64,000 nt of DNA, from NCBI RefSeq assembly GCF_013778305.1, contig NZ_JACEIC010000002.1:623708-687707 (forward strand), in the 5' to 3' direction. Within the stretch, counting starts at the first letter, position 1, and the number at the start of each line of letters is the position of its first letter. The translations under genes and the position numbers were made by a program. Positions 26,033-58,500 of this stretch are shown here, piece after piece. The notes beneath the pieces are model-generated. The model did not search any database, was not told the DNA's origin, and saw nothing but the letters and a program-made list of their open reading frames with translations. This DNA comes from Nocardioides agri. GTDB lineage: Bacteria; Actinomycetota; Actinomycetes; Propionibacteriales; Nocardioidaceae.

Positions 26033-26052
26033 GTCGATCTCCTCCAGGTTGG

Positions 26053-41978: not shown

Positions 41979-42001
41979 GATATTGTCAATGATATATTGT
42001 A
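41979..42001. promoter_or_regulatory. Double AT-rich element, divergent sortase 2/WxL promoter
   Basis: GATATTGTC (41979-41987) is followed by AATGATATATTGTA (41988-42001), which looks like a tandem copy of one half of the shared motif. TATATT at 41993-41998 would be the -10 of sortase 2, with a leader of about 38 nt. The WxL-like gene is divergent, with a longer leader of about 125 nt. Confidence 0.6.
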
Positions 42002-42901: not shown

Positions 42902-43648
42902 TCAGTGGTCGCGCAGGAGGCTCCCGTAGCCGTGGAGCCTCTCCTCGATGCCGTTGTCGCGCAGCGCCATCCACCAGGTGGCGGCGTTGATCGCGATGAC
43001 CGGCTTGCCGAGCCACCGCTCGGCCTCGTCGGCGAGCTCGGTCATGCACAGGTTGGTGCCGCACTGCACGATCGCGTCGACCTCGGGCCCGTCGACCTCG
43101 ATGATCGCCTCGCGCAGCGTCTGCTCCGACACGTGGGCGATGGAGACCGCCGAGGGGCAGCACAGGCCCTTGACCCTGCCGACCTCGAAGCCGAGCTCGG
43201 TGAAGAACCTGCGGACGTTGGCGTCGCCGATCGGGGTGTACGGCGTCACGACGCCGATCCTCCGCGCGCCGAAGAGCTTCAGCGCGCGCTCGCACGCCTC
43301 GGCACCGGTGGCCACGTCGAGGCCGCCCGAGAGCTCCTTGATCTGCGCCACGAACTGGCGGTTGCCCTCGACCCCGTCCCAGAACGTCTCGGCGCTCATG
43401 CCCATGACCATGTAGTCGGGCTGCATGGTCATGATCCCCTCGACGCAGTCGGCCATCGAGGCGCGGATCTGCTCGAGCAGCGCCTCCATGCCCTCGTCGT
43501 CGCCGATCCGGCCGTCGCGGATCAGGATCCGGCCGTAGTGCGAGGTGACGCCCGGGACCCGCATCATGTCGAACTCGGGCTGGACGATCGTGTTGGTGCT
43601 CGGGGCGATCACGCCGAACTTGCGGCGGTAGCCGAGACGATCGGTCAC
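42902..43648 (-). CDS. Asp/Glu racemase-superfamily, maleate isomerase/AMDase-like
   Basis: This 248-residue protein matches the maleate cis-trans isomerase / arylmalonate decarboxylase group. GVIAPSTNTIVQPEF is near residue 12 and IVQCGTNLCM near 193, with catalytic Cys196. INAATWW is near 225. The first catalytic Cys of maleate isomerases should lie near 82-85, but the segment reads YMVMGMSAET. Only the second Cys is therefore present, as in arylmalonate decarboxylases. GTG 43648 overlaps the membrane-protein stop. It ends the operon of RCCR-like and Rieske genes. Isomerisation or decarboxylation of an alkyl-maleate is a reasonable guess. Confidence 0.82.
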   Translation of the reverse strand: MTDRLGYRRKFGVIAPSTNTIVQPEFDMMRVPGVTSHYGRILIRDGRIGDDEGMEALLEQIRASMADCVEGIMTMQPDYMVMGMSAETFWDGVEGNRQFVAQIKELSGGLDVATGAEACERALKLFGARRIGVVTPYTPIGDANVRRFFTELGFEVGRVKGLCCPSAVSIAHVSEQTLREAIIEVDGPEVDAIVQCGTNLCMTELADEAERWLGKPVIAINAATWWMALRDNGIEERLHGYGSLLRDH

Positions 43649-44325
43649 CGACGTGCTCCTGCGCTGATCGGGGTGGGGGCGTCGGCCGACGTCACCCGCT
43701 TGCGGATCCCGAGGGCGCCGAGCAGGAAGCAGAGCTGGACGAGGGAGTTGGTGGCCTGCTCCAGCCACTGCAGCTCCTCGGACTGGTGCGGTCGTGCGGC
43801 GAGCGGCGGCAGCACCAGCGTGCCGACGATGTAGACCGCGTAGAACACGACGCCCGCCGCGAACCCGTGGCGGCGCGACAGCCGGATCCCGAGGACACCG
43901 ACGAAGACCGCGAAGACGGCGGCGACGATCAGCAGCGGCCAGGTGTCCCCCACCGCGAGCGCGGCGGCACCTCCGGCCACCGGTGCGACGAGGAACGGCC
44001 ACCACGACGCCTGCCGCCCCCGCCAGACGCCGACCAGCGCGCAGGCGATGCCCGCGAACCCGAAGGCCAGGCACGGGAAGAGCAGGTGCTCGAGGACCGG
44101 GTAGTCGCGGCACGGCTCCGCGGCGACCAGGGTCTTCCACAGCGCCTTGCAGAAGCCCCCGAGGGTGACGAGGGCGCCGGCCAGCAGCGCGGGCACGCGG
44201 ACGGCGGGCAGGGCGCGCCCGGCCGCCTGCCCGAGGACCACGGTCCCGGCGCCGGCCAGCAGCACCGGCACGAAGTCCTCGAGCGCCAGCGCGAGGCCGT
44301 ACTCGGTGCACGGGTCGACGGCCAT
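43645..44325 (-). CDS. Polytopic membrane protein of unknown function
   Basis: This 226-residue protein has about six or seven hydrophobic helices (for example FVPVLLAGAGTVVLGQAAG, LLFPCLAFGFAGIACALVGV, GDTWPLLIVAAVFAVFVGVL, GVVFYAVYIVGTLVLPPLA). It has Cys residues near 6, 59 and 71 that are well placed for the outer face. I do not recognise the family. ATG 44325 overlaps the SDR stop, so it is co-translated with the tetrapyrrole-like operon. Transport or anchoring of the pathway at the membrane is possible. Confidence 0.75.
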   Translation of the reverse strand: MAVDPCTEYGLALALEDFVPVLLAGAGTVVLGQAAGRALPAVRVPALLAGALVTLGGFCKALWKTLVAAEPCRDYPVLEHLLFPCLAFGFAGIACALVGVWRGRQASWWPFLVAPVAGGAAALAVGDTWPLLIVAAVFAVFVGVLGIRLSRRHGFAAGVVFYAVYIVGTLVLPPLAARPHQSEELQWLEQATNSLVQLCFLLGALGIRKRVTSADAPTPISAGARR

Positions 44326-45140
44326 CAGGCCGTCGCCTCGGCGAAGATGTCGCGCTTCTTGAAGCCCGCGGTCGCGAACCGGCCGAACGCCTTCGACCTC
44401 GTCAGCCATGCCACCCGGGTGCCGGACCTCTGGGCCCCGAGGACCCCGTCGGCGAGGTAGGGGGTCACGGTCTCGACGCGGTCGCCGAGGATGTTGAAGA
44501 TCTTGCGAGCCTGCTCGAAGGCCTCGGGCTGGCCGTCGTAGTCGTCCACGAGCAGGTCGGTGGCGACGATGCCCGGCGACACGAAGCCGACCTTGACGCT
44601 CGTGCCCCTGGTCTCCTTGACCAGGGACTCGGTCAGGTAGGTCACCGCACGCTTCGAGGCGCCGTAGGTCGCCATGCCGGGCTGCACCTGGCCGGTGGAG
44701 CCGAAGCCCTCCATGTTCCAGATCCAGCCGCCGGCGGGCTGCTGCTGCATCCCGGCCAGCGCGACCACGCACCCGTTGGTGGCGCCGAAGAGGTTGGTGG
44801 CGACCACGTCGGCCACGGTTCCCTCCGCGACCTCGGTCAGGGGACGGCGTGGCGCGGAGATGCCGGCGTTGTTGATCCAGACGTCGACCGCGCCGTACGT
44901 CGCGACGGCGTGGTCCCACAGCGCCTGCACGGACTCGCGCCGGGTGACGTCCGCAGGGACGCCGGTCACCCGCCCCGGCGCCGCGGCGCCGAGCTCGGCC
45001 GCCGCGTCGCGCACGCTCGTGTCCGACCTGCCGCAGATCACCACCCGGCAGCCGCGGGCGAGCATCTCCCTGGCCAGGCCGAGGCCGATGCCCCGGGTGC
45101 CGCCGGTGATGACGACGACCCTGCCGGACGCGGCGCTCAC
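44325..45140 (-). CDS. SDR family reductase, NOL/NYC1-like
   Basis: This 271-residue SDR has ITGGTRGIG at 11-19, NNAG at 90-93 and catalytic Y159/K163 in YGASK. The region WNMEGFGSTG (141-150) then YGASKRAVTYLTESL, and SPGIVATDLLV (188-198), resembles plant NOL, where I recall FNIDGAGSDG, YGATKRSVVHLTKSL and SPGMVTTDLLM. The C-terminal segment NILGDRVETVTPYLADGVL fits as well. Plant NOL reduces the C7 formyl of chlorophyll b. GTG 45140 overlaps the next stop. Chlorophyll b reductase-like activity is inferred from family and neighbours. Confidence 0.82.
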   Translation of the reverse strand: MSAASGRVVVITGGTRGIGLGLAREMLARGCRVVICGRSDTSVRDAAAELGAAAPGRVTGVPADVTRRESVQALWDHAVATYGAVDVWINNAGISAPRRPLTEVAEGTVADVVATNLFGATNGCVVALAGMQQQPAGGWIWNMEGFGSTGQVQPGMATYGASKRAVTYLTESLVKETRGTSVKVGFVSPGIVATDLLVDDYDGQPEAFEQARKIFNILGDRVETVTPYLADGVLGAQRSGTRVAWLTRSKAFGRFATAGFKKRDIFAEATA

Positions 45141-46102
45141 GCGGTCTCCCAGGTCAGCAGGCCGTGCACGAAGTGCGTGGTGGTGTCGCCGCGGAAGAGC
45201 TGCCACACGACGGCGAGCTCGCGGGTGTCGGCGTCGATGAGGACCTCGCGGCCCTTGATCTTCTCGACGCCACGGGCGTCGGGCCCGACCAGGTGCTGGC
45301 TGGTGAAGAGCGCGCGGCCGTACGACGTCGCGTTGCCGAAGACCTCGGGGCCCTCGTACTGGGTGCGAGCACCGTCGCGGACCCGCTCGAAGCCGTAGCT
45401 GCGGTCCAGCGCCCCGGTCCACGTGACCTGCTGGCGGGCCCGGCGCAGCGAGATCGGGTCGTGCTCGATGGTGACCTCGACGGTGCCCAGGTCGCTCTGG
45501 TCGGCGGCGTTGACGAAGAGGGTGCCGGTCCAGGCCCCCTTCTCCTTGGTCGGCAGCACCTGCGGCACCGAGCCGCGCCGCGTCTCCAGGTCGATCCAGT
45601 CGGTGACGAACTGCTGGGTCGCCGGGTTGGTCTCGCTGTCGAACGTGCGCTTGTAGATGCCGTTGAAGACCGCGCAGACCGCCCAGCCGTCGTGCAGGAC
45701 CGAGGAGTAGACCTGGGTCTCGCCGTCGGGCAGCACCTGGTTCCAGGTGCGCAGGTCGGCCTGCCAGCCGGGCGAGTAGTAGTGCGCGTCTACGAACAGT
45801 CCGTAGGGCTGGCCGGTGCCGTAGAAGTCCGGGCCGCAGTAGACCCGGTTCTCGTCGGAGTCGACGATGCCGAAGTCGAACTGCGCACCGAGCTCGAAGC
45901 GGTTGCGGAGCGGGCCGCTGGCCTCCAGGCGGGTGTTCATCCAGTAGCGGGCGACACCGTCCTCGACCACGCTCGCGCGGTCGACCCGCTCGAAGCCGAC
46001 GTGGTTGCCCTGGGCGTCGAAGAGGCCCGGGCGGCCGTGCCACTCCCCCTCGATGCGCTTCTGCCAGGTGCTGGTCTCCACGCCCTCGTCGACGGCGGTC
46101 AT
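45137..46102 (-). CDS. Beta-barrel-like protein of unknown function
   Basis: This 321-residue soluble protein is rich in Trp, Tyr and Gly. It has alternating strands such as WQKRIEGEWHGRPGLFD, ARYWMNTRLEAS, NRVYCGPDFYGT and QVYSSVLHDGWAVCAVFNGI. The pattern suggests a lipocalin- or calycin-like barrel that could bind a hydrophobic ligand. I do not recognise the family with certainty. It is coupled by ATGA overlaps between a bilin-reductase-fold gene and the NOL-like SDR. Ligand carrier or chromophore-handling protein is a speculation from that context. Confidence 0.72.
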   Translation of the reverse strand: MTAVDEGVETSTWQKRIEGEWHGRPGLFDAQGNHVGFERVDRASVVEDGVARYWMNTRLEASGPLRNRFELGAQFDFGIVDSDENRVYCGPDFYGTGQPYGLFVDAHYYSPGWQADLRTWNQVLPDGETQVYSSVLHDGWAVCAVFNGIYKRTFDSETNPATQQFVTDWIDLETRRGSVPQVLPTKEKGAWTGTLFVNAADQSDLGTVEVTIEHDPISLRRARQQVTWTGALDRSYGFERVRDGARTQYEGPEVFGNATSYGRALFTSQHLVGPDARGVEKIKGREVLIDADTRELAVVWQLFRGDTTTHFVHGLLTWETA

Positions 46103-46848
46103 GCGTTCTCCCCCGGGATCGAGTTGTCGAGCAGCAGGCCGCGCACGGCCTCCATCTGCTCGATGCCGATGAGCTGCTCCACCTGGGCCCAGACCTTGTC
46201 GACGTCGGGGCTGAAGATGTTGGCGCGGTTGCGCTCGTCGCGCGCGGCCAGGTCGGTGTCCGCCACGTCGGCGGCGACCTCGGCCGGCACCCCGCCCTCG
46301 ACGAGGGCGAACCAGTGCTCCAGGTAGGCCTTGACCGGCTCGTCGATCGAGCGGAACGCCTCCTCGTCGGCGCGGTGCACCAGCATCCAGGGAGACATCA
46401 TCGCGAACTGGCGCGGGCCGATCGCGGTCTTGGTCAGGCCGGGGCGGCCGGTGACCTCCTCGAACGTCGTGTCCAGCGGCGTGTGCGCCCAGTCCAGGTA
46501 GGCCAGGTGGGTGCCGAGGTCGGCACGCGGGATCAGGTCGAGGTGGAAGGCGTAGGTGCCCTGGCCGAAGACCGAGTCCAACGTGAAGTGCGGGACCGGG
46601 ACGCCGGCCGGTGCGAACGCGAACACCATGTGGCTGTCGAGGCCGATCTGCGGCACCGCGAGGCCGACGTAGACGGCCTTGGCGATCCGGTCGCCGTGGA
46701 AGACCCGCGCCTCGCCGACCTCGCCGAACGGGACGGAGGTGAGCTCGAGCAGCGGGCCGCCGTCGGCGCCGGTCACCTCGGTGAGACCCCCGCGCTCGAC
46801 GATCGTGTCGAGGGTGCCGTGGCACAGGGCTCCGGACAGGCTGGTCAT
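46099..46848 (-). CDS. RCCR/bilin-reductase-fold protein B
   Basis: This 249-residue protein is a more distant member of the RCCR / ferredoxin-dependent bilin reductase group. It shows VPHFTLDSVF at 85-94, FHLDLIPRADL at 101-111, PRQFAMMSP at 145-153 and WFALVEGG near 179-186, in the same order as the two closer RCCR-like proteins. The C-terminal ARDERNRANIFSPDVDKVW is at 202-220. ATG 46848 overlaps the Rieske gene stop. Immediate coupling to a PaO-like oxygenase is the arrangement expected for oxygenase product reduction. Assignment is by motif order, not by a database search. Confidence 0.68.
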   Translation of the reverse strand: MTSLSGALCHGTLDTIVERGGLTEVTGADGGPLLELTSVPFGEVGEARVFHGDRIAKAVYVGLAVPQIGLDSHMVFAFAPAGVPVPHFTLDSVFGQGTYAFHLDLIPRADLGTHLAYLDWAHTPLDTTFEEVTGRPGLTKTAIGPRQFAMMSPWMLVHRADEEAFRSIDEPVKAYLEHWFALVEGGVPAEVAADVADTDLAARDERNRANIFSPDVDKVWAQVEQLIGIEQMEAVRGLLLDNSIPGENA

Positions 46849-48074
46849 CGCTTGATCTCCTCGATCGTGGAGTCGGACGTGGACAGGGAGTCAGTGCGGG
46901 GCACGTCGCCGCGGGCCGTGCGATCGGCGGTCCCGCGCAGCAGCTCCTTGCTGCGGACCTCCTTGAAGTTCCATGCGCTCGCGAGCTCGGGGACCTCCTT
47001 GCGGACCGGCGACGGGATCACCCGCTGCTCGACGCGGGCCGGGCCCTCCCCGACGATCGTGTTGCCCTCGACGCTCCAGCCGGCCTCGATGAGCTCCTGG
47101 CGGCGACGGCGGTAGAGGACGGCGTTGTAGTCGCTCTTGACGTGGAGCTCGTCGGAGAGGTCGAACGGCAGCAGCTCGGGGCGGACGGTGTCGACGATCG
47201 CCTGGTCCTCGTAGAGCACCTTGAAGACGCGACGGCGGGCGTCGCGGTCGGCCCACTTGCCCTTGAAGAACGTGCGCAGCGCGACGAACTTGACCAGCGT
47301 GGTCTCCTCGTCGATCGGCACGTTGACGTCGAAGATCTTGAGCTGGCCCATCGGCGTGGTGACGTCGAGCAGGATCATGTTCGGCAGGTACCAGGTCGTG
47401 GAGACCGGCACCGGCGGACGCTGCTGGAGGTCCTTGGTCTTGTTGGGGTTGAGCATCCCCCAGATGCCCTTGGAGTTCGGCGGGTTGAGCACCACCGACA
47501 CCTTGCAGTGCCACGGCGAGGTCTCGATCTCGAACTCCGGCACCTCCGGCTTCTCCTTGTTGCCGAACACACCGCCGTGCACGAACGGCGTGTGCGCGAC
47601 GTCCACGCCGTTCTCGAGGATCCGCTCGTAGTTGGACTTCCAGAGGAACTCGCCGGTGACGGCGCGGTAGTTCTCGGTGTCGTCGATGTCGGACCAGTCC
47701 GGGATCGGCGGGCGCTCCTCCTCCGGGAGGTCGCCCATGTAGACCCAGACGAACATGTACTTCTCCTGCACCGGGTAGGAGTCGATCCGCGCCTTGCGCG
47801 GGATGCCCTTGTCCGGGTGCGCGGGGATCTTCTGCACCTCGCCGTTCGGCTTGTACTCCCAGCCGTGGTAGGGGCACACGATGCAGTCGCCCTTGATCTC
47901 GCCACTCGACAGCGCCGCGCCACGGTGCACGCAGAGGTCGGACATCGCGACGACCGAGTTGTCGCTGGTCTTGCGGTAGAGCACCAGCTGCTGGCCGAGG
48001 ATCTTGACCTTCTTGGGCTTCCCCGCGACCACGTCATGACTGAATTCGACGGCGTACCAGAAGTTCTTGAACAT
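46845..48074 (-). CDS. Rieske non-heme iron oxygenase, PaO-like
   Basis: This 409-residue oxygenase has a Rieske [2Fe-2S] site, C48-x-H50 in LCVHRGA and C67-x2-H70 in CPYHGWEY. The mononuclear iron motif is D158-x2-H161-x4-H166 in ENGVDVAHTPFVHGG. This combination fits the pheophorbide a oxygenase / vanillate demethylase group. Plant PaO opens the chlorin ring with O2. The plant C-terminal membrane helix is absent. ATG 48074 has an AGGAG site. It lies between chlorophyllase-like and bilin-reductase-fold genes. A reductase partner is not in the immediate operon. Demethylation or hydroxylation of another substrate remains possible. Confidence 0.85.
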   Translation of the reverse strand: MFKNFWYAVEFSHDVVAGKPKKVKILGQQLVLYRKTSDNSVVAMSDLCVHRGAALSSGEIKGDCIVCPYHGWEYKPNGEVQKIPAHPDKGIPRKARIDSYPVQEKYMFVWVYMGDLPEEERPPIPDWSDIDDTENYRAVTGEFLWKSNYERILENGVDVAHTPFVHGGVFGNKEKPEVPEFEIETSPWHCKVSVVLNPPNSKGIWGMLNPNKTKDLQQRPPVPVSTTWYLPNMILLDVTTPMGQLKIFDVNVPIDEETTLVKFVALRTFFKGKWADRDARRRVFKVLYEDQAIVDTVRPELLPFDLSDELHVKSDYNAVLYRRRRQELIEAGWSVEGNTIVGEGPARVEQRVIPSPVRKEVPELASAWNFKEVRSKELLRGTADRTARGDVPRTDSLSTSDSTIEEIKR

Positions 48075-48083
48075 GACTGTCTC

Positions 48084-49073
48084 CTAGCGACGACGGACGT
48101 CGGCGATCTCGGTCGGCGGGTGCTCGGCGATCTGCTCGAGCCGGGACTTGGCATCCGGGCGGTCCGTGAGGTGGGCCGTCAGGAAGGTGGCGACGAGGTC
48201 CCCGAGCACGGCCCGGAGCCGGTCGGGGTCGGCGTCGCTGGGGGTCTCGAGGAAGCCGCGCGCCGTCGAGGGGTCCTCGGGGTGCGCGGCCAGCAGGTGG
48301 CCGGCTCCGGCGAGGTGCACGAGCCACGACTCGGTGGTCTCCGGGAGCGCCTCGCTAAAGGTGCGGGTCACGGGGTCGTGCGCGGGCGAGCTCGGGTCCT
48401 CGCCGTAGCGGATGGCGCTGGCGGCGACGACGCCGTCGTCGGTGCCGGCGACCAGCAGGGTCGGGGCGTCGACGGCGGCGGGCAGCAGCGTGCTGGGCGG
48501 GTAGCCGAGCATCTGCGAGGCCATCGTGTGCGCGCCGTAGGTGACGATCGCGCGGACCTCCGGGAACCACACCGCCCGGGCCGACTGGAGCACGACCGTG
48601 CCGCCCGCCGAGTGCCCGAAGAGCGCGACCTTGTCGAGGTCGAGCAGCCCGGCGAGCTGGCCGGCCTCGTTCAGCGCGGCGACGGCGTCGAGCACCGGTC
48701 GCAGCGCCTGGGTCGTCGGCCGCTCGCCGTAGTGCTCGGGCCCGGCCGCGACCACGTCGACGCCCGGCGTCAGGCCGTACTCGCCGGCGAAGAGCTCACC
48801 GACCCAGTCGTAGCCGACGACGACGAACCCGGCCTCGACCAGCCGGAAGGCCAGCCAGCGGTAGGCCTCGGAGGCGCAGTTGACCCCGGAGACCAGCACC
48901 ACGACCGGGTACGGCGCGCCCGCGGGGTCGGCCGCGAGACGACCGCTCATCCGCTCGACGTCGTCGCGTGCCGGCAGCGCCGGGTAGCGGACGGTGACGT
49001 GGGCGGTGTCGTAGGGCGCCAGCGCCCCGGGGATGCTGACCGCCGTGCGGAGGCTGCGGACCAGCACGCCCAT
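48084..49073 (-). CDS. Chlorophyllase-like alpha/beta hydrolase
   Basis: This 329-residue serine hydrolase has YPVVVLVSGVNCASEAYRWL near 55-74 and AGFVVVGYDWVG near 81-92. The nucleophile elbow is GHSAGG at 153-158 with Ser155, the acid Asp near 212-213 in AGTDDGV and the late His259 in GAGHLL. Spacing and the segment around the elbow recall plant chlorophyllases, which remove phytol. Other dienelactone-hydrolase-type esterases look similar, so this is a weaker assignment. ATG 49073 shares a base with the RCCR-like stop. Context with a PaO-like gene supports an ester-cleaving step. Confidence 0.72.
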   Translation of the reverse strand: MGVLVRSLRTAVSIPGALAPYDTAHVTVRYPALPARDDVERMSGRLAADPAGAPYPVVVLVSGVNCASEAYRWLAFRLVEAGFVVVGYDWVGELFAGEYGLTPGVDVVAAGPEHYGERPTTQALRPVLDAVAALNEAGQLAGLLDLDKVALFGHSAGGTVVLQSARAVWFPEVRAIVTYGAHTMASQMLGYPPSTLLPAAVDAPTLLVAGTDDGVVAASAIRYGEDPSSPAHDPVTRTFSEALPETTESWLVHLAGAGHLLAAHPEDPSTARGFLETPSDADPDRLRAVLGDLVATFLTAHLTDRPDAKSRLEQIAEHPPTEIADVRRR

Positions 49074-49888
49074 CAGGCCCACTCGTGCGCGCGCGCGAGC
49101 TGGCGGTCGCCACCCCAGAGGGCGCGCACCAGCGTGTCGGTCAGGTCCTTGCCGAAGAACCGGTCGCCCATCTCGTTCGCGGGGTCGCGGTCGGCGATGT
49201 TGCGCCGGGTCGCCAGGTCGTCGGCGGCCAGCGCGGCCTGCTCCTCGACCGGCACCCGCTCCGCCTCGTCGACCCAGCGCAGCCAGCGGTCGAGGTGGTC
49301 GGTGGCGAGCTTGGTGACCACGTCGGTGGTGCGGCTGTCGGTCGGCGCTGTGTAGGCGTGCGCCATCGGCGACAGGCTCGCCCGGACGAAGCCGCTGCGG
49401 CTGACGAACGGGGCGAGGAAGTCGTTGTCCTGCTGGACCTGCTCCCACTCCGCGTTGAGCGGGCCGTAGTAGCGGTCGAAGGAGTCGGTGTCGGTGAGCA
49501 GGTTGGAGCGCGGCACGGAGTCGACGAAGATCCAGGCCTGCGGGAACGCGCCCAGCGCCAGGCCGAAGTGCGGCACCTTGACCTGCGGGCCGAGCCAGAT
49601 CGTCAGGTGGATGTTGGCGAAGCCGAGCTTCGCGTTCTCCATGTAGGAGTGCACCATCCAGTCGATCTCCGGGCCGGCGTAGGCGCGGATCCGGCCCGTG
49701 GGGCCGCCGTTCAGCCCTCCGAAGCTCTCGAGCCGCTCGCTGGAGGCGTCCCGGGTGAGCTCGAACCGGTCGGCCACCCTGGCCTTGAGGCCGTCGACCA
49801 GCTCCATCCAGGTCCCGAAGATCTCCGAGATGTCCGTCGTCGGGGCCTCGTCGTAGAACTCCTGCACGGACTTCAGGGTCTGGCTCAT
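49073..49888 (-). CDS. Red chlorophyll catabolite reductase-like protein C
   Basis: This 271-residue paralogue of the protein at 22397 has the clearest match to plant RCCR: DWMVHSYM (76-83), VPHFGLAL (105-112), SVPRSNL (124-130), FVRASLSPMAHAY (167-179) and DPANEMGDRFFGKDL (235-249), then LVRALWGG. In the plant protein I recall FVRSAFSPTAS at the equivalent place and a DLQFPRMFGEE-type C-terminus. ATG 49888 has a GAGGAG site. It is the first gene of the operon holding the chlorophyllase-like and Rieske genes, with the shared AT-rich promoter upstream. Reduction of a linear tetrapyrrole is inferred. Confidence 0.77.
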   Translation of the reverse strand: MSQTLKSVQEFYDEAPTTDISEIFGTWMELVDGLKARVADRFELTRDASSERLESFGGLNGGPTGRIRAYAGPEIDWMVHSYMENAKLGFANIHLTIWLGPQVKVPHFGLALGAFPQAWIFVDSVPRSNLLTDTDSFDRYYGPLNAEWEQVQQDNDFLAPFVSRSGFVRASLSPMAHAYTAPTDSRTTDVVTKLATDHLDRWLRWVDEAERVPVEEQAALAADDLATRRNIADRDPANEMGDRFFGKDLTDTLVRALWGGDRQLARAHEWA

Positions 49889-49928: not shown

Positions 49929-49942
49929 GACTATATATGATG
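49929..49942 (-). promoter_or_regulatory. AT-rich shared element of the RCCR/Rieske operon
   Basis: The minus strand reads CATCATATATAGTC. TATAGT (49935-49930) is a likely -10, giving a leader of about 35 nt that includes the ribosome site of the gene at 49888. Confidence 0.65.
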
Positions 49943-50038: not shown

Positions 50039-51487
50039 TCAGCCGGGGTACGCCGCCGCGCCCAGGCCCGCTCCCCCGGCCCGGAACGCTCCGGGCGCGT
50101 GGACCACGCACGGCTGGGTGTGCTCGAGCACGCCCTCGTCGCCGTACTCGCGGCCCCAGCCGGAGCGCTTGACCCCACCGAACGGCGCGCGCAGCGCCAT
50201 CCCGGTGCGATTGTGGGTGTTGACGAACGTGAAGCCGGCGTCCAGCCGCGCGGCGACAGAGAACGCCCGCTCCTCGTCGGCCGACCAGACCGAGGCGGCC
50301 AGGCCGAGGTCGCCGGCGTTGGCCCGGGCGACCGCGTCGTCGACCGAGTCGTAGGCGAGCACCGGCAGGCTCGGTCCGAACTGCTCCTCGACCACCAGGC
50401 GGTCGCCGTCGGCCGCGCCGACGACGAGCGTGGGCCGCAGGTAGTAACCGCGGCCGAGGTCGGTCCCCTCGTCGACGTGGCCGAGCACGAACGCCTCGGC
50501 GCCACGTGCGGTCGCGGCGTCGACCAGCCCCTGCACCCGGACCGCGGAGTCGTGGGAGACGACCGGGCCGATCGTGACGCCGTCGCGCAGGGGGTCGCCG
50601 AGCCGGAGCACCCGGTCGGCCGCGGCGCGGTAGGCGTCGACGACCTCGTCATGCCGGCTGCGCGGCACCAGCAGCCGCTTGACCGCCATGCAGACCTGGC
50701 CGGAGGTCGCGAAGGTCGCCATCACCAGGCGGTCCATCGCGTCGGGCCCGAGGTCGGCGTCGTCGAGCAGGATCGCCGCGTCGTTGCCGCCGAGCTCCAT
50801 CAGCGAGGGCGTCAGGCTCTGCCCGGCGAGCGCCGCGAGGGCCCGACCGGCCCGCTCGCCGCCGGTGAACGCGACCCGGTCGACGCCGGGGTGCCCGACC
50901 AGCGCCGTCGCGGCCCCGGCGTCGCCCTGCACGACCTGCACGAGGTGCTCCCCCACCGCGTCGCCCAGCAGCGCGACGACCCGGGCGATCGCGAACGGCG
51001 CCAGCGGCGAGGGCTTGACGACCACGGCGTTGCCGGAGACCAGGGCGGGGCCGAGCTTGAGCGCGGCGAGGATGATCGGGGCGTTCCACGGCGTCACGGC
51101 CGCGACGACGCCGTACGGCCGCCGTCGGACGACCAGGCGGCCGGCCTCGTCGTCGACGACCTCGTCGACCAGCAGCTGCTCGGCGCGGTCGGCCGACCAG
51201 CGCAGCACGGTGACGGCGAAGCCGAGCTCGCCGCGGCAGTCCGGCAGCACCTTGCCGGTCTCGCGGGCCATCAGCACCGCGAGGTCGTCGATCTCGGCGG
51301 CGACCCGGTCCGCGCCGGCGCGCACCGAGGCGCAGCGCTCGGCGAGGTCGGTCGCGGCCCAGGCCCGCTGAGCGGCGCGGGCCAGGACCACGGCGGTGTC
51401 GACGCCCGCGGCGTCCGTGGGCGCGACCGAGCCGACCAGCTCGTCGACGCGCGCGGGGTTCTCCCGCTCGATCATCGCTCCGCTCAT
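50039..51487 (-). CDS. Aldehyde dehydrogenase family protein 1
   Basis: This 482-residue NAD(P)-dependent aldehyde dehydrogenase has VTPWNAPIILAALKLGPAL near 130, the Glu in LMELGGNDAAIL near 232 and catalytic Cys in TSGQVCMAVKRL near 266. APFGGVKRSGWGREYG is near 440. It overlaps the flavin monooxygenase gene. It should oxidise an aldehyde to an acid. It ends the operon that begins with a flavin reductase. Confidence 0.92.
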   Translation of the reverse strand: MSGAMIERENPARVDELVGSVAPTDAAGVDTAVVLARAAQRAWAATDLAERCASVRAGADRVAAEIDDLAVLMARETGKVLPDCRGELGFAVTVLRWSADRAEQLLVDEVVDDEAGRLVVRRRPYGVVAAVTPWNAPIILAALKLGPALVSGNAVVVKPSPLAPFAIARVVALLGDAVGEHLVQVVQGDAGAATALVGHPGVDRVAFTGGERAGRALAALAGQSLTPSLMELGGNDAAILLDDADLGPDAMDRLVMATFATSGQVCMAVKRLLVPRSRHDEVVDAYRAAADRVLRLGDPLRDGVTIGPVVSHDSAVRVQGLVDAATARGAEAFVLGHVDEGTDLGRGYYLRPTLVVGAADGDRLVVEEQFGPSLPVLAYDSVDDAVARANAGDLGLAASVWSADEERAFSVAARLDAGFTFVNTHNRTGMALRAPFGGVKRSGWGREYGDEGVLEHTQPCVVHAPGAFRAGGAGLGAAAYPG

Positions 51488-52686
51488 CGGGGCCGGACAC
51501 CGACCATGTCGACGACCTTGCCGCCACGCAGGGAGTTGATCATCGAGGTGTTGAGGAGGTGCCGGCGCATCCGCTCGCGGTCGGCGGCCAGCTCGCGCAG
51601 CTCGTCGTGGTAGGCCCTGATGGCCGCCGGGTCGTCCTGGCGCAGCTTCTCCCAGTTGTCGTGGGTGATCGTCTTGACGTAGGACAGCGCGACCTGCCGG
51701 CGCGCCTCACAGGCCTCGTCGAGCCGCTCGAGCGAGCCCGTGCCTCGGACCAGCTCGAGCAGCGCCGTGGTCTCGACGTACGCGTCGTGCAGCCCGCTGT
51801 TCATGCCCATGCCGCCGAGCGGGTTGTTGATGTGCGCGGCATCCCCCATCAGCAACAGCCGACCATTGCGAAAGGTGTCGGCCACCCGCTGGTGGACGCG
51901 GTAGAGCGTGGTGTGCAGGACGTCCCAGTCGCGGCCGAGGTCGGCGACGCCCCGCAGCCGCTCCTGCACGCGGGCCGGGTCGCTCTCGACCGCGTCCGGC
52001 GTGTCCGGGTCGGTCGGGAAGAGGATCCGCCAGTGCTCGGGGGTGCGCAGCAGCACCAGCCACTCGGTCGGGTCGAACACGTAGTTGACCGCCGAGATGC
52101 CCGGCAGGATCGACTCGAGGTCCTCGGTCGTCGAGGCGACCAGGAACCGCTCGGGGTAGGTCATCCCCTCGAAGGTGAACCCGGCGGTCTGCCGCACCTG
52201 GGAGTTCGCGCCGTCGGCGCCGAGCACCCAGTCGGCGGTGAACGTGTCGCCGGCCTCCGTCGTCACCGTCGCGCTGGCGCCGTCGGTCTCGGCGCGGACC
52301 ACGCGCTGGCCGAAGTGGACCGTCACGTTGTCCAGGCCCTCGAGCACCTCGAGGATGATCGGGGTCAGCTTCGACTGCTCGAGCTGGACCCGGAACGGGA
52401 AGCGGGTGTCCTCGGAGAGCACGCCGAGGTCGAGGTCGGCGATCGGGCCGGTCCGGCGGTCGCGGTACTGGAACCCGGTCGACACCAGCCCGCGCTCCAT
52501 CAGCGGCTCGAGGACGCCGAGGTCGTCGAGCATCTCCAGGCTCGGCGGGTGGAACGTCGACGCGCGGGACTCGCCGGCCAGCGAGTCGCCGGCCTCCAGG
52601 ACCGTCACCCGGACGCCGCCGCGCGCCATCAGCAGCGCGGCGGTCATGCCGACGGGGCCGGCACCTGCAACAAGGACGTGCGTCAT
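51484..52686 (-). CDS. Class A FAD-dependent monooxygenase
   Basis: This 400-residue aromatic hydroxylase-type flavoprotein has VAGAGPVGMTAALLMARGGV at residues 5-24 and the FAD/NADPH motif DWVLGADGANSQVR near 155. The second FAD motif is RLLLMGDAAHINNPLGGMGMNSG near 270. These match PheA/TfdB and polyketide hydroxylases that insert one oxygen using NAD(P)H. ATG 52686 overlaps the PEP mutase-like gene stop. Its substrate is unknown; an aromatic or pyrrolic ring is plausible. Confidence 0.9.
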   Translation of the reverse strand: MTHVLVAGAGPVGMTAALLMARGGVRVTVLEAGDSLAGESRASTFHPPSLEMLDDLGVLEPLMERGLVSTGFQYRDRRTGPIADLDLGVLSEDTRFPFRVQLEQSKLTPIILEVLEGLDNVTVHFGQRVVRAETDGASATVTTEAGDTFTADWVLGADGANSQVRQTAGFTFEGMTYPERFLVASTTEDLESILPGISAVNYVFDPTEWLVLLRTPEHWRILFPTDPDTPDAVESDPARVQERLRGVADLGRDWDVLHTTLYRVHQRVADTFRNGRLLLMGDAAHINNPLGGMGMNSGLHDAYVETTALLELVRGTGSLERLDEACEARRQVALSYVKTITHDNWEKLRQDDPAAIRAYHDELRELAADRERMRRHLLNTSMINSLRGGKVVDMVGVRPR

Positions 52687-53576
52687 CGGGCGTCTCCTGC
52701 GGCGTACCGCTGCTCGAGGGTCAACAGGTCGGGCAGCCCGACCAGCGTGGTGAGGTCGTCCCAGCCGAGGCGGTCGACCGAGCCGGCGTCGCCGTCGGCC
52801 GCGATCGCGGCGTACACGGCCGCCTGGGCGCGGGCGGCGGCGAGCAGCGCCGAGACCGGGTGGATGACCACCCGGACCCCGAGCTCGCGCAGCGCTGCCT
52901 GGTCGAGCGGGGCCTCGTTGCCCGCGGCCTCGGACCGGTTGACGACGAGGGGCGGGCAGCTGCCGGCCGCTCGGGTGACCCCCTCGACCACCAGAGCCAG
53001 GTCCGGCAGGCCCGCCCCCTCGACGAACACGGCGTCGGCGCCCGCCTCGGCGAACGCGACGCAGCGCTCCGTCGCCGACGCGACGCCCTCGACGCCCAGG
53101 GCGTCGGTGCGTGCGACGACGACGACATCGGTCGCCCCGTCGTGGTGAGCCTCCACGGCCGCGCGCACCCGCGCGGCCGCCTCGGCGACGTCGACGACCT
53201 GCTTGCCGGCCAGGTGGCCGCAGCGCTTGGGGGCGACCTGGTCCTCCAGGTGCAGCCCCGCGATCCCGGCCGCGGCGTACGCCCGGGCGGTCGCCCGTGC
53301 CTGCAGCGCGTTGCCGTAGCCGGTGTCGGCGTCGGCGAGCAGCGGGAGCCCGTCGAGCGCCGGTACGACGGCCCGCGCGACCCGCGCGATGTCGGCCGCG
53401 TGGACGAAGCCGAGGTCGGGCAGACCGAGCTCGACCGCGGACGCGACCGCGCCGGACAGGTGCGCGCCCCGGATCCCGGCCCGCGCCGCGAGACGGGCGC
53501 TCACCGCGTCGTACACGCCCGGGAAGTGGACCAGGTCGGGGCCGGCCAGGATCGCTCTGAGCTGCTGAGCCGTCAT
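52683..53576 (-). CDS. Isocitrate lyase/PEP mutase superfamily protein
   Basis: This 297-residue TIM barrel resembles methylisocitrate lyase and oxaloacetate decarboxylase-like members. LLADADTGYGN near residue 73 and AGLHLEDQVAPKRCGHLAGK near 103 carry the metal-binding Asp and Glu and the catalytic-loop Cys region. The presence of KRCGH suggests lyase activity. It would split or decarboxylate a 2-hydroxy dicarboxylate, giving pyruvate, glyoxylate or succinate. It is coupled to an aldehyde dehydrogenase and a monooxygenase. Confidence 0.87.
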   Translation of the reverse strand: MTAQQLRAILAGPDLVHFPGVYDAVSARLAARAGIRGAHLSGAVASAVELGLPDLGFVHAADIARVARAVVPALDGLPLLADADTGYGNALQARATARAYAAAGIAGLHLEDQVAPKRCGHLAGKQVVDVAEAAARVRAAVEAHHDGATDVVVVARTDALGVEGVASATERCVAFAEAGADAVFVEGAGLPDLALVVEGVTRAAGSCPPLVVNRSEAAGNEAPLDQAALRELGVRVVIHPVSALLAAARAQAAVYAAIAADGDAGSVDRLGWDDLTTLVGLPDLLTLEQRYAAGDAR

Positions 53577-55051
53577 CGGCCGTGCAGCGCCGTCATGCCC
53601 TCGACGCCGACGACGCGGGCGCCGGTGAAGGTGCGGATCGTCTCCACGGTGCCCTCCTCGCCCAGGCCGGAGAGGCCCCAGGCCGGGCGCGGCGTCATCA
53701 GGTGCAGGCTCATGATCGTCGAGCCGTTGACCTTCACCTCGCCGGCACGGACCTGGCGGGCCACCGCCATCGCCCGGTCGGTGTCGGTGCCGACGACATA
53801 GCCCTCGAGCCCGAACGGCGTGCCGTTGGCGAGCGCCACCGCCTCCGCCTCGGTCTCGTAGGTGTGCACGGTGGCGACCGGCCCGAACATCTCCTCCGTG
53901 GCCGCCTCGCCGGGCACGCCGGTGAGCAGTGTCGGAGCCAGGAAGCTGCCGTCGCCGTCCGGGACGGTGGTGCTGGCGTGCGCCGTGCCGCCGGCGGCCT
54001 CGCGGGTCGCGATCTCGTCGCGCAGCCGGGCCGCGTGCGCCGAGTGCACGATCGGACCGAGGTCGGTCTCGGGGTCGAGCGGGTCGCCGACGGTGAGCTT
54101 GCCCAGCCGGTCGAGCGCCAGCGCGAGCACCTCGTCGGCGATCGCGGCCGGGAGGATCAGCCGACCGAGTGCTCGGCACCACTGGCCGTTGAGGGTGGTC
54201 AGCAGGTCCGTCGCGGCCTGGGCGGCGGCCGCCGGATCGGCGTCGGGCATGACGACGAGCGGATTGTTGCCGCCGAGCTCGAGCTGGAGCGCAGTGAAGT
54301 CCTCGGCACACGCGGCCGCGACCGCGCGGCCGCCGAGGGCGCCGCCGGTGAACGAGACCGCGCGCACCCTCCGGTCGCGGACCAGCAGGCCACCGACATG
54401 GGGGCCGCCCTGCACCAGCTGGAACATGCCGGGATGGACGCCGGCCTCGGCGAGCACCCGGCCGACCACGCGGCCGAGCTCGGAGGTGCCGTACGGCGCG
54501 TACTCGCTCGGCTTGAGGATCGTCGGCGCGCCGGCCGCGAGCGCGCTCGCGACCTTGTGGGCGGCCATCGGCGCGGGCGCGTTCCACGGCACCAGGCACA
54601 CGGCCGGGCCGAGCGGCAGGCGGTGCACCTCGACGGCGTTGCCGGCGTCGGAGGTCTGGTCGTCACGCAGCACGCCGGCGCGCAGCATGCCCGCGGCGAG
54701 GTGGAAGGCGCCGGGCACGATCACACCGACGATCGAGGTCTGCCGGACGGGCACGCCGGTCGCGAACGCCTCGAGCCCGGCGATCCGCGGCAGCTCGGCC
54801 TCGAGGGCGGTGCCGACGGCGTCGAGGATCTCTGCGCGGCGCTCGACGTCGAGGGTGAGCCACCCACCGTCGTCGTACGCCGCCTGCGCGGTGGTGAGCG
54901 CGCGCTCGACGTCGGTGTCGCTGGTCGCGGCGGCCGCGCCCAGCGAGGTGCCGCGGTAGGGGTCCTCCAGGACCAGGTCGAGGCGCTCGGTCGGCGCGCT
55001 CCACTCGCCGGCGACGAGCTGGCCCGCCTCGGGAAGCTCGATGTTGGTCAC
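53573..55051 (-). CDS. Aldehyde dehydrogenase family protein 2
   Basis: This 492-residue aldehyde dehydrogenase has VCLVPWNAPAPMAAHKVASAL near 157, LQLELGGNNPLVV near 258 and catalytic Cys in LNGQWCRALGRL near 292. GLSGLGEEG is at the C-terminus. GTG 55051 gives the normal N-terminus for the family with GAGGGAG upstream; longer frames run through the neighbouring gene. It shares the operon with paralogue 1, suggesting two different aldehydes in the route. Confidence 0.91.
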   Translation of the reverse strand: MTNIELPEAGQLVAGEWSAPTERLDLVLEDPYRGTSLGAAAATSDTDVERALTTAQAAYDDGGWLTLDVERRAEILDAVGTALEAELPRIAGLEAFATGVPVRQTSIVGVIVPGAFHLAAGMLRAGVLRDDQTSDAGNAVEVHRLPLGPAVCLVPWNAPAPMAAHKVASALAAGAPTILKPSEYAPYGTSELGRVVGRVLAEAGVHPGMFQLVQGGPHVGGLLVRDRRVRAVSFTGGALGGRAVAAACAEDFTALQLELGGNNPLVVMPDADPAAAAQAATDLLTTLNGQWCRALGRLILPAAIADEVLALALDRLGKLTVGDPLDPETDLGPIVHSAHAARLRDEIATREAAGGTAHASTTVPDGDGSFLAPTLLTGVPGEAATEEMFGPVATVHTYETEAEAVALANGTPFGLEGYVVGTDTDRAMAVARQVRAGEVKVNGSTIMSLHLMTPRPAWGLSGLGEEGTVETIRTFTGARVVGVEGMTALHGR

Positions 55052-55071: not shown

Positions 55072-56358
55072 CTACTTCTTGAAGCTGTCGGTGGTCGTGA
55101 GACCCGCCCAGCCCTCGTTCTCCACGATCATCTTCGCCAGGTCGAGCTTCCCGCGCTCGGCGGGGAACGCCTGGACCAGGCCCATCGAGGTGTCGCGGAC
55201 GGCCCGCCCGATCGGGTTGCCCATCAGCGCACCGGACGTGCCACACATCTTGAGGGACGCGAGCGCCACCTCGTGAGCGTGCTCGCAGATCGCGCCCTTG
55301 GCGAGCTTCCAGCTCTGCACGACCTCGTTCTTGGGCAGGATCGGCGGGTCGCTGGCCTCCAGCTCGATCTGGCGGCGCAGCCAGAGGTGCGCCTCGGCCA
55401 GATGCTGCTCGCCGTCGCCGATGAGCACCTGGTGCATCGGGCTGGAGGCGATCGGCTTGCCGGTGTCGGCGAACGTCGCGGCCATCGTGCGGCCCATCGC
55501 GTAGTCCCAGACGCCCTGGGCGACGCCGGCGTAGATCGACGCGATCGCGATCTGGTTGCCGACCCAGGAGCCGCGCGACATCGACGTGGCCCGGGTGAAG
55601 GCGCCGGGGACGGCCAGGGACAGGTCGTCGGGGACGAAGCAGTCCTCGAGGACCAGGCCGTTGTTGTCGGAGGCGCGCATGCCAAGGCCGATCCAGGGCG
55701 CACGCGGGCGGGCGCCCTCGGAGTCGCGGGCGACCAGGAAGAGGGTCAGCGCGTCGAGGCCCTCGACGTCCTCGCGGCGGGCGGTGACCAGGTAGTAGTC
55801 GGCCGAGCCGGAGAGGCAGCCGAAGGACTTCTCGCCGTTGAGCAGCCAGCCGCCCTCGGTCCGGGTCGCGGTGGTGCGGATCAGCACGTTGGCGTTGGAG
55901 GCCTTGACCGCCTCGCTGGCGAAGTTGCCGATGGCCTTGCGCTCGGTGCCCATCAGGTGGAGCACCTTCTCGGCGAAGGCACGGACGACCGGCGCCTCCT
56001 CCTCGCCGTACAGCCCGGCGTCCAGCGCCGCCAGCGGCAGCAGGCCGCGCGAGGACGACGAGCAGTGGAAGAAGAAGGCGAGCGCGGTCGAGCCGCACGC
56101 CTTGCCGAGCGTGTACGTCGTGGCCGCGAGGTCGCGCAGCCCGCCGCCGAGTCCGCCGTACTCCTCCGGGACGACGAGGCCGAGCAGGCCCGCGTCGCCG
56201 AGCAGCTTGATGTGCCCCTCGGGCAGCGCACCGGCCTCGTCGGCCGACTCGGCCGCGGCGGCGATCGCCGGCAGCACGGACTCGACCCGCTCGGCACGCC
56301 CGCGCTCGGCGGGCGTGAGGTCCGGGAGGAGGTACTCCGCCGTGAGTTGACCGGTCAT
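55072..56358 (-). CDS. Acyl-CoA dehydrogenase-fold flavin monooxygenase-like protein
   Basis: This 428-residue protein has the acyl-CoA dehydrogenase fold (LLGLVVPEEYGGLGGGLRDL near 60, GWLLNGEKSFGCLSGSADYY near 168). Its C-terminal LKMCGTSGALMGNPIGRAVRD resembles group D monooxygenases such as HsaA and DszC rather than a true dehydrogenase with the GGxGY motif. It overlaps the flavin reductase gene (ATGA), which would supply reduced flavin. I therefore prefer a two-component oxygenase. A dehydrogenase acting on an acyl-CoA is the alternative. Confidence 0.82.
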   Translation of the reverse strand: MTGQLTAEYLLPDLTPAERGRAERVESVLPAIAAAAESADEAGALPEGHIKLLGDAGLLGLVVPEEYGGLGGGLRDLAATTYTLGKACGSTALAFFFHCSSSSRGLLPLAALDAGLYGEEEAPVVRAFAEKVLHLMGTERKAIGNFASEAVKASNANVLIRTTATRTEGGWLLNGEKSFGCLSGSADYYLVTARREDVEGLDALTLFLVARDSEGARPRAPWIGLGMRASDNNGLVLEDCFVPDDLSLAVPGAFTRATSMSRGSWVGNQIAIASIYAGVAQGVWDYAMGRTMAATFADTGKPIASSPMHQVLIGDGEQHLAEAHLWLRRQIELEASDPPILPKNEVVQSWKLAKGAICEHAHEVALASLKMCGTSGALMGNPIGRAVRDTSMGLVQAFPAERGKLDLAKMIVENEGWAGLTTTDSFKK

Positions 56359-57610: not shown

Positions 57611-57624
57611 GAGAATATACAATA
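57611..57624 (-). promoter_or_regulatory. AT-rich shared element near the GntR gene
   Basis: The minus strand reads TATTGTATATTCTC, with -10 TATATT for the flavin reductase operon and a leader of about 17 nt. The GntR gene at 57745 lies on the other side, so this site could also give autoregulation. Confidence 0.62.
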
Positions 57625-57744: not shown

Positions 57745-58455
57745 ATGGTCCGCACGCGCACCGGAGCGCCCGTCCGCCCGATCGCCCACCTGTCACTGGT
57801 GGACCGGGTCACCGACGAGCTGCACCGCGCGATCCTCAACGGCGACATCCGGCCGGGGGCGGCGGTCTCGATCGTGGAGCTGTGCGAGCAGTTCGACGTC
57901 AGCCACATCCCGGTGCGCGAGGCGCTGCGCCGCCTGGAGAGCGAAGGGCTGGTCAGCCTGCGCCCCGGCCGCTCGGCGCTGGTCGCCTCGCTCAGCCCCG
58001 AGGACCTCTCCGGCATCTATCGGCTGCGCAAGCTGATCGAGGGTGACCTCACGCTGCGCGCGATGCAGAACCTGTCCGAGGAGCGCCTCGAGGCGGCGCA
58101 GGTCGCGCTGGACGAGTACGCCGACGTCGAGCGCGAGCCGGCCTCCCTCGCGGCGGCCCACCACGCCTTCCACTCCGCGCTCCTCGACGACGTGACCGGT
58201 GGCGCCGATCGCCGGGTGCTCGAGATCCTCTGGCACTCGGCCGACCGCTACCTGCATCTGCTCATGGACAACCTCGACAAGGCCCCCGAGACCACCGAGG
58301 CGCGGATCGACGAGCACCGCGCGCTCCTCGACCTCGCCCGGGCCGGCAAGGCTCAGGAGCTGCGCGACGCCTGGGTCGCCCACCTCGAGAGCAGCGAGAC
58401 CGCGCTCATGGCCGCCCTCGAGCGCAGTCCGGAGAACCAGGCCGCCCAGGCCTGA
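57745..58455 (+). CDS. GntR-family transcriptional regulator, FCD subfamily
   Basis: This 236-residue regulator has an N-terminal winged helix (LVDRVTDELHRAILNGDIRPG, then LCEQFDVSHIPVREALRRLE, then EGLVSLRPGRSALVASLS). A C-terminal FCD ligand-binding domain has LIEGDLTLRAM, Asp/His-type metal-binding positions in HHAFHSALL and a late His in EHRALLDLA. ATG 57745 follows AGGGAGAGAG. FCD regulators usually bind short palindromes such as TnGTnnnACnA and respond to organic acids. It is the only such regulator in the window, so it is the best candidate to act on the shared AT-rich elements. That link is inferred. Confidence 0.9.
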   Translation: MVRTRTGAPVRPIAHLSLVDRVTDELHRAILNGDIRPGAAVSIVELCEQFDVSHIPVREALRRLESEGLVSLRPGRSALVASLSPEDLSGIYRLRKLIEGDLTLRAMQNLSEERLEAAQVALDEYADVEREPASLAAAHHAFHSALLDDVTGGADRRVLEILWHSADRYLHLLMDNLDKAPETTEARIDEHRALLDLARAGKAQELRDAWVAHLESSETALMAALERSPENQAAQA

Positions 58456-58500
58456 GGTCCGTCGGCTCGCTGCCCGGCGCGGGGCGGGGCGGGGCGGCGG

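Follow-up and report, generated by a model that had tools for sequence, protein, structure and literature searches.

The operon and its genes

The DNA analysed here, 64,000 nt of Nocardioides agri (NZ_JACEIC010000002.1, positions 623,708–687,707 of the forward strand; hereafter the window), contains a minus-strand operon encoding an RCC_reductase-family protein (RCCR-A), an alpha/beta hydrolase, a Rieske oxygenase, a bilin-reductase-fold protein (FDBR2), a tandem-calycin protein and a short-chain dehydrogenase/reductase (SDR). A first-pass annotation had placed these six genes correctly in coordinates and strand, and had likened them to the chlorophyll-breakdown enzymes of plants. The operon comprises eight genes rather than six, as a membrane-type gene and an arylmalonate-decarboxylase/EutA-like gene follow. 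Judged by its family, the product of the latter is a candidate maleate-type isomerase or decarboxylase.

The overlap coupling proposed for the six genes holds at four of their junctions: RCCR-A/hydrolase (1 base, TGATG at 49073), and Rieske/FDBR2, FDBR2/calycin and calycin/SDR (4 bases each). The hydrolase and Rieske genes, however, are separated by a 9-base gap. The SDR gene overlaps that of the membrane-type protein by 1 base. The last two genes of the operon overlap by 4 bases, and the hydrolase starts at 49073, internal to a longer listed open reading frame. All 62 genes predicted in the window were scanned against Pfam (Table 1).

Table 1. Genes and motif sites of the island in window coordinates, with profile scores in bits
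Feature	Position	Strand	Evidence
RCCR-A, RCC_reductase family, first operon gene	49073..49888	-	PF06405 44.0, cut-off 24.9
Alpha/beta hydrolase (GHSAG)	48084..49073	-	PF12146 35.6 (cut-off 27), PF01738 28.9 (cut-off 21)
Rieske non-heme iron oxygenase, VanA_C type	46845..48074	-	PF00355 87.3, PF19112 84.4
FDBR2, bilin-reductase-fold protein, no Pfam match	46099..46848	-	Predicted fold, profile comparison
Tandem-calycin (double lipocalin-like) protein, putative pigment binder	45137..46102	-	Predicted fold
SDR	44325..45140	-	PF00106 146.9
Membrane-type protein by composition, no Pfam match	43645..44325	-	Homologue in 40/53 full-flank loci
Asp/Glu-racemase superfamily (arylmalonate decarboxylase/EutA-like)	42902..43648	-	PF17645 64.9; TIGR02990 76.2, below cut-off 318
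CoA-transferase III, PF04199 cyclase, MmgE/PrpD, hydantoinase/allantoinase-like cyclic amidohydrolase	2625..7487	+	Pfam; TIGR03178
HpcH/HpaI-family C-C lyase near RipC/Ccl	12062..12910	-	NF038242 165.9, below cut-off 375
Acyl-CoA dehydrogenase, ChsH2-type OB protein, thiolase-like, two MaoC-type	12900..16459	-	6/6 relatives
RidA-like protein	16456..17301	-	PF01042 42.8
MmgE/PrpD-family protein	17298..18623	-	PF03972 204
Class III CoA-transferase	18620..19822	-	PF02515 404.2
Luciferase-like flavin monooxygenase	19819..20850	-	PF00296 214.8
MaoC-type hydratase near RipB/Ich	20850..21371	-	NF038241 204.6, below cut-off 340
RCCR-B, second RCC_reductase-family protein	22397..23224	+	PF06405 51.0, cut-off 24.9
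NAD(P)-binding epimerase-like protein, coupled to RCCR-B	23221..24084	+	PF01370 50.2
Neocarzinostatin-fold protein, likely secreted	25403..26056	-	PF00960 57.7
Branched-chain-amino-acid-type ABC importer	26053..30930	-	PF02653, PF00005, PF12399; 6/6 relatives
Sortase	33282..33911	+	PF04203 111.4; 6/6 relatives
Aldehyde dehydrogenase 1	50039..51487	-	PF00171 412.9
FAD-dependent monooxygenase (FAD_binding_3)	51484..52686	-	PF01494 198.1
PEP-mutase/isocitrate-lyase superfamily C-C lyase (PrpB-like)	52683..53576	-	PF13714 127.8; TIGR02317 215.8, below cut-off 354.4
Aldehyde dehydrogenase 2	53573..55051	-	PF00171 341
Acyl-CoA-dehydrogenase-fold flavin enzyme, likely monooxygenase	55072..56358	-	PF02771, PF02770, PF08028
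Flavin reductase with C-terminal extension	56355..57590	-	PF01613 157.8
GntR/FCD regulator, candidate island regulator	57745..58455	+	PF00392 65.1, PF07729 52.4
Carbon-nitrogen hydrolase (amidase family), long C-terminal extension	58610..60241	-	PF00795 140.6
MFS transporter	60319..61674	+	PF07690 192.4
Cupin-like protein	61688..62266	-	PF14499 29.5
Isochorismatase-family hydrolase, candidate amidase	62263..62871	-	PF00857 111.7
Class III CoA-transferase, runs past window end	62871..64000	-	PF02515 363.2; reciprocal best hit in 6/6 relatives
WATATAYNAT, between genes 7629 and 8546	8530..8539	+	Motif search
WATATAYNAT, before surface-protein gene 9632	11144..11153	+	Motif search
WATATAYNAT, before ABC importer operon	31069..31078	+	Motif search
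WATATAYNAT, surface-protein/sortase intergenic	33221..33230	-	Motif search
WATATAYNAT, before second sortase gene	41989..41998	-	Motif search
WATATAYNAT, 44 bases before RCCR-A	49932..49941	+	Overlaps -10-like hexamer
WATATAYNAT, flavin reductase/GntR intergenic	57614..57623	+	Motif search
WATATAYNAT, CN-hydrolase/MFS intergenic	60253..60262	+	Motif search

Three proteins of the RCCR/FDBR superfamily

RCCR-A exceeds the PF06405 cut-off and belongs to the RCCR family, as had been suggested, while its score against the Fe_bilin_red profile (24.8 bits) does not reach the cut-off of 31. By searching the genome with the PF06405 profile, we found a second gene, RCCR-B, which also lies inside the window and is similar in sequence to Arabidopsis RCCR chains (match at E 0.0012). 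Among 73 RCCR-A homologues found, 70 were distinct and all were aligned with the window's own protein (71 sequences). The RCCR-B alignment contains seven homologues and the window's own (8 sequences), and an Arabidopsis RCCR fragment served as the plant reference.

The column of Arabidopsis Glu154, which we take to be the central active-site acid of RCCR, is occupied by Ala in 71/71 RCCR-A sequences and by Val in 8/8 RCCR-B sequences. A C-terminal Asp is invariant in both (Asp235 in 71/71 RCCR-A; 8/8 RCCR-B) and aligns with plant Asp290, the neighbour of Asp291, presumably the C-terminal active-site Asp; this is a one-column ambiguity of the alignment. Four residues before Glu154, the column of a plant Asn holds His in 68/71 RCCR-A and 8/8 RCCR-B sequences. 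Since the central acid is replaced, we refer to the two proteins as family relatives and not as RCC reductases by activity.

The annotation also recognised FDBR2 correctly as a second operon protein of the RCCR/FDBR fold, which only the predicted fold and profile comparison reveal. It matches no Pfam family at E 0.01, and so neither Fe_bilin_red nor RCC_reductase, while its bilin-reductase fold is predicted confidently. Comparing its profile with that of RCCR-A gave 97.0% (E 1e-10), against 0.3% and 0.1% for calycin controls. The FDBR2 alignment comprises 44 sequences, the window's own and 43 of 120 among the matches listed (1478 found). Both active-site acids, placed through the profile alignment with RCCR-A rather than by superposition, are kept: the central Asp91 and the C-terminal Asp217, in 44/44 each. 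His87, present in 44/44, is the same His as in the RCCR alignment. On the basis of these residues, FDBR2 looks like a conventional reductase, and RCCR-A and RCCR-B look like altered reductases of the superfamily. If the linear-tetrapyrrole reading proposed below holds, FDBR2 would represent a bilin-reductase subfamily that is new and has no Pfam model. The island thus has three superfamily proteins, two above a Pfam cut-off and one by predicted fold.

The beta-barrel protein proposed next to FDBR2 is indeed one: its confidently predicted fold is a tandem calycin. Its alignment draws on 49 of 120 among the matches listed (373 found), and its identity with DUF3598 proteins and chloroplast BFA1 is only 11% and 8%.

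Comparison with the plant enzymes

The Rieske protein has both iron motifs that had been read in it (C48/H50/C67/H70 and D158/H161/H166). The Rieske pattern with 15–17 spacing residues occurs in 73/82 distinct homologues, with longer spacing in 7 more, and the mononuclear iron pattern in 81/82. In plants, PaO has a C-terminal membrane anchor and a CxxC motif. The C-terminal domain of the island protein is VanA-type and not the PaO domain PF08417, which argues against its assignment as PaO. The PF08417 profile matched nothing in the genome; among controls it matched 2/14, one of them above the cut-off. The nearest solved structures are SxtDIOX, SxtT and NdmA.

The names chlorophyllase and NOL/NYC1 are not supported either. 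The hydrolase scores 19.0 bits against PF07224, under the cut-off of 26, and the SDR matches only generic SDR families (Pfam, and the best 25 of 222 NCBIfam families). A Staygreen dechelatase profile was found in 0/29 genomes, with no match in any control either. Of the plant-like chlorophyll-breakdown operon, the RCCR assignment therefore stands, while PaO, chlorophyllase and NOL/NYC1 are either contradicted or unproven, and RCCR is the only gene to carry the parallel. Likewise, the proposed route for a chlorophyll-type tetrapyrrole or a bilin keeps the RCCR/bilin-reductase superfamily within a catabolic operon, but not the plant-type enzyme set. Conversion of a tetrapyrrole still explains the operon best, but a role for chlorophyll itself is not established.

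Conservation of the island and of the operon module

Whole-island synteny was checked in six of the 17 congeners with an RCCR pair (G002, G010, G018, G020, G028 and G036), and the window is largely syntenic in all six. From -5 kb to +65 kb in window coordinates, 45/66 predicted genes have reciprocal best hits in 6/6 relatives. The left edge of the island lies at approximately 1183 (3/6 relatives) or 2625 (6/6), and the right edge at 64996, an HMGL-like gene slightly past the window (5/6). The block 2625–7487 belongs to the island in 6/6 relatives, but is found at its opposite end in G018 and G036. The segment 33985–42881, mostly private to the N. agri genome, carries a two-component pair, WxLIP-type and other surface-like proteins and the second sortase.

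PF06405 is present in 18/215 Nocardioides genomes, counting that of N. agri; each has exactly two copies, convergent and 17.1–26.0 kb apart. The profile matched 0/21 other members of the same order. It is rare elsewhere, occurring in 2/395 other sampled Actinomycetota genomes and in 3/301 genomes of a Chloroflexi sample, including the sample centre G462.

Using the calycin alignment to scan named genomes, we obtained 157 confirmed relatives. We took 80 of the 157 loci, 53 of which have full flanks, and counted homologues by tblastn (E 1e-6, 40% query coverage). At full-flank loci, the Rieske gene was found in 53/53, FDBR2 in 52/53, RCCR-A, hydrolase and SDR in 49/53 each, the Amdase-like gene in 41/53, and CN-hydrolase in 37/53. 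RCCR-A, Rieske and FDBR2 occur together in 49/53, with L066, L096, L098 and L099 as the exceptions. Hosts of the module include Mumia, Actinomadura, Catellatospora, Micromonospora, Streptosporangium, Actinoplanes and Streptomyces, as well as Acidimicrobiales, Anaerolineae and a few proteobacteria. Since it is conserved across genera and phyla, the gene set is more than a chance assembly.

From the RCCR side, we examined five PF06405 genomes outside Nocardioides, four of them found by PF06405 alone. In the two actinobacterial genomes, one of which (G351) is probably the same genome as locus L067, RCCR stands beside Rieske, FDBR2 and calycin genes. In the three Chloroflexi genomes, it stands beside CN-hydrolase, FAD monooxygenase and aldehyde dehydrogenase genes. 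G462 carries both gene sets, as it was itself reached via the module locus L066. The Chloroflexi loci L128–L130 have a compact CN-hydrolase, RCCR, FAD monooxygenase and aldehyde dehydrogenase set, apart from the Rieske/FDBR2/calycin module; from gene order, this arrangement suggests two functional sub-modules. LeuC/LeuD-type hydratases lie beside the module in 13/80 loci, all Chloroflexi, and a hydantoinase-like gene in 10/80 (eight of these thirteen plus two more).

A shared sequence motif

An AT-rich, operator-like word, condensed as WATATAYNAT, is common to intergenic sequences of the window. Its eight window sites (Table 1) are all intergenic, with 0 expected from 100 shuffles. The whole genome (4.79 Mb) contains only one further match, 4.4 kb ahead of the window start, so that all nine lie in or beside the island; the reversed control gave 0. 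The ninth site precedes an AMP-binding enzyme (-4401) and a cupin-like protein, both kept in 3/6 relatives. Among the 17 congeners with an RCCR pair, 85/110 matches fall no more than 40 kb from the pair, whereas nine congeners without it have one match in total. These genome-wide and cross-species counts are more independent than the window count. Joint control of the island genes is strongly suggested, and the island is very probably one regulon. In our judgement, it is highly likely to form a single co-regulated catabolic island.

Transport and ring-fragment genes

The window encodes three class III CoA-transferases and two MmgE/PrpD proteins. The proteins at 20850, 12062 and 52683 have RipB/Ich, RipC/Ccl and PrpB as their best NCBIfam relatives, all scoring under the cut-offs; the first two recall itaconate degradation, at scores below the equivalog cut-offs. 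The hydantoinase/allantoinase-like amidohydrolase reaches 222.2 bits against TIGR03178, under the cut-off of 357.85. In Chloroflexi relatives, LeuC- and LeuD/DmdB-family genes pass subfamily cut-offs and resemble LeuCD/DmdAB-type hydratases. Judged by these families, much of the remaining island looks like a route for degrading amide- or imide-bearing, branched four-carbon diacids.

The ABC importer consists of a fused permease/ATPase, a second ATPase and a putative substrate-binding protein (29656), which has no Pfam match and is assigned by position. The adjoining neocarzinostatin-fold gene is kept in the six relatives. In other actinomycetes, the neocarzinostatin fold carries an aromatic chromophore.

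The luciferase-fold enzyme and the RidA-like protein (within 16456–20850), together with the isochorismatase-family hydrolase (62263–62871), resemble a set known from Rut pyrimidine opening.

A possible route for linear tetrapyrroles

The island is real, unusual and widely conserved. We propose that the operon is the core of an island of approximately 64 kb that likely serves the uptake and complete catabolism of linear tetrapyrroles (bilins or phyllobilins), a reading to which we give a probability of about 0.62. The presence of three proteins of bilin-reductase type suggests that the substrate is a linear tetrapyrrole. Since the diacid-type genes fit oxidised bilin rings (maleimides, hematinic acid), the proposed order is import, reduction, cutting, imide hydrolysis and C-C lysis. 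Gene content, families and joint conservation are observed, while each individual reaction is inferred from them.

The ABC importer, the MFS carrier and sortase-linked surface proteins would import the pigment. The calycin protein may then hold it for stepwise reduction by FDBR2 and both altered RCCR proteins, to which housekeeping ferredoxins would supply the electrons. Subsequently, the alpha/beta hydrolase would take off an ester, the Rieske and flavin oxygenases would cleave the bridges between rings, and the aldehyde dehydrogenases would oxidise the formyl ends. Hydantoinase-like, CN-hydrolase and isochorismatase-like enzymes may open the lactams or maleimides to alkylmaleates, which CoA-transferases, MmgE/PrpD, MaoC/RipB-like proteins and RipC-/PrpB-like lyases could break down further to pyruvate and acyl units. 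Control of the island would lie with the GntR regulator, acting through WATATAYNAT. According to the available part of one study, hematinic acid from chlorophyll is found in leaves, and maleimides are cited from senescent leaves and sediments (PMC7318184).

Several points weigh against this reading. A shared superfamily fold alone does not show the reaction, and with the central acid lost, RCCR-A and RCCR-B may not be reductases. RCCR-A alone matches no solved RCCR, and FDBR2 matches neither the single Arabidopsis RCCR fragment (0.14%) nor, convincingly, the solved bilin reductases by sequence (best relevant match E 1.9). Scanning the 62 genes predicted in the window revealed no recognisable ferredoxin, and no Rieske module was found in the 20 kb read beside RCCR in the three Chloroflexi genomes. 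The substrates of the ring-fragment arm are guesses, because all its NCBIfam matches fall below the cut-offs, and the available text of PMC7318184 reports that maleimides were not detected in its own leaf samples. As for the motif, the word was chosen after inspecting the window, and counting it there is therefore no independent test; 25/110 congener matches lie elsewhere, with 10 matches for the reversed control in those 17 genomes, and the site of the RCCR-A operon overlaps a -10-like hexamer.

The leading alternative, which we regard as unlikely, is that the island handles another N-heterocycle or a lactam or imide, with bilin-reductase folds recruited to a new substrate. The lost central acid in RCCR-A and RCCR-B and the Rut-like trio in the window would fit, while FDBR2 retains both acids and the predicted bilin-reductase fold. 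The lumichrome cluster of Nocardioides is a precedent: as described in the available text, it is large, acts on an insoluble heterocycle with amidases and a Rieske enzyme, and ends in pyruvate and acetoacetate (PMC12746152). However, the window scans turned up no equivalent of its P450, xanthine oxidase, thiamin-dependent decarboxylase or extradiol dioxygenase, its Rieske oxygenase has two subunits and its own electron carriers, and an RCCR-type protein is not described in that part of the report (PMC12746152).

Turnover of the cell's own heme appears distinctly improbable. Here a heme oxygenase elsewhere in the genome (G000:C2:1027783) would make biliverdin for the island to reduce and degrade. 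Biliverdin is kept in play because a heme oxygenase is found in 17/18 Nocardioides with the RCCR pair (own included) and in 9/18 without it (Fisher p 0.007, a value that ignores kinship, with the 18 pair-less genomes taken in list order and not randomly). The gene, however, lies approximately 340 kb outside the window, the pair-bearing G496 has none, and the presence of importer and surface genes suggests that the substrate comes from outside the cell.

A PaO-like route, with chlorin-ring opening of pheophorbide or chlorophyllide by the Rieske enzyme itself and subsequent reduction by the RCCR proteins, is about as improbable. Rieske and RCCR genes do share one operon, and occur together in 49/53 full-flank loci, but the VanA_C domain, the SxtDIOX/SxtT and NdmA relatives and the lack of a chlorophyllase by profile speak against it. 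A biosynthetic cluster for a modified bilin or pyrrole natural product is very improbable: bilin reductases elsewhere serve chromophore synthesis (PMC10151467, in the part available), but the island has many CoA-transferases, hydratases, C-C lyases, aldehyde dehydrogenases, hydrolases and import genes, and Pfam scans of the 62 window genes found no assembly-line synthetase or globin.

Relation to known systems

What the island has in common with the plant PaO/phyllobilin pathway (PaO, RCCR, CLH, NOL/NYC1) is a protein of the RCC_reductase family and a Rieske oxygenase, which in the window are operon neighbours. The two differ in the non-PaO Rieske enzyme, the lack of a chlorophyllase by profile, the replaced central acid of the RCCR proteins and the presence of a ring-fragment arm. 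The plant route ends at linear tetrapyrroles, and much chlorophyll is left in that form.

FDBR and pre-PcyA bilin reductases have the same fold, FDBR2 keeping both acids, and relatives occur in non-photosynthetic bacteria, as far as the available text goes (PMC10151467). Pre-PcyA clusters are typically described there with heme oxygenase, V4R, Fe-S and globin genes, or with a B12-binding protein and a globin, whereas the island partners are a Rieske enzyme, a calycin, an SDR and catabolic enzymes. The same portion places Candidatus Schekmanbacteria sequences within the RCCR outgroup, and contains no description of the present cluster. RCCR homologues are reported, in the consulted part of PMC2716323, from land plants and, among bacteria, from symbiotic cyanobacteria.

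Judging by titles and abstract openings among the papers listed, in the literature outside subscription papers and preprints, we found no description of a bacterial operon consuming linear tetrapyrroles; nor, within that scope, of any bacterial operon of this make-up, in agreement with the first-pass annotation. More tentatively, and at odds slightly short of even, there may be a dedicated linear-tetrapyrrole mineralisation in Actinomycetota and Chloroflexota, in which a Rieske enzyme and three divergent bilin-reductase-fold enzymes reduce and cleave bilins or phyllobilins, with maleimides and alkylmaleates as intermediates on the way to pyruvate. Chlorophyll is made and degraded on a yearly scale of 10^12 kg (PMC7318184, available part). 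If true, the proposal would supply the missing environmental fate of its linear breakdown products, and would offer genes, a regulator and an operator for direct tests of the fate of phyllobilins and bilins in soil. Even with the wrong substrate, the island would remain a catabolic regulon of wide conservation, and its three RCCR/FDBR-type proteins, two of which have lost the central acid, show unexplored chemistry in this superfamily.

Additional observations

DUF3891-type proteins lie beside the module in 15/80 loci, and two uncharacterised families without Pfam match in 15/80 and 14/80, as judged from one scanned representative of each. The loci concerned are L066, L069, L070, L081, L084, L086, L094–L097, L099, L100, L102, L104 and L106. 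Module genes are also carried by L035 and L038, contigs of a Bifidobacterium breve metagenome-assembled genome whose bin is probably mislabelled; L038 has two RCCR-A-type genes.

At the left island edge, a GAF-domain protein (PF01590; window 3–830, extending to approximately -933) is kept in 2/6 relatives. GAF domains can bind bilins in phytochromes. Inverted repeats lie between converging gene ends at 58455–58610 and 7487–7629 (TTTCATCAAGGGATGA and CGTCGAGTGACG, with their complements), and from their position are possibly bidirectional terminators.

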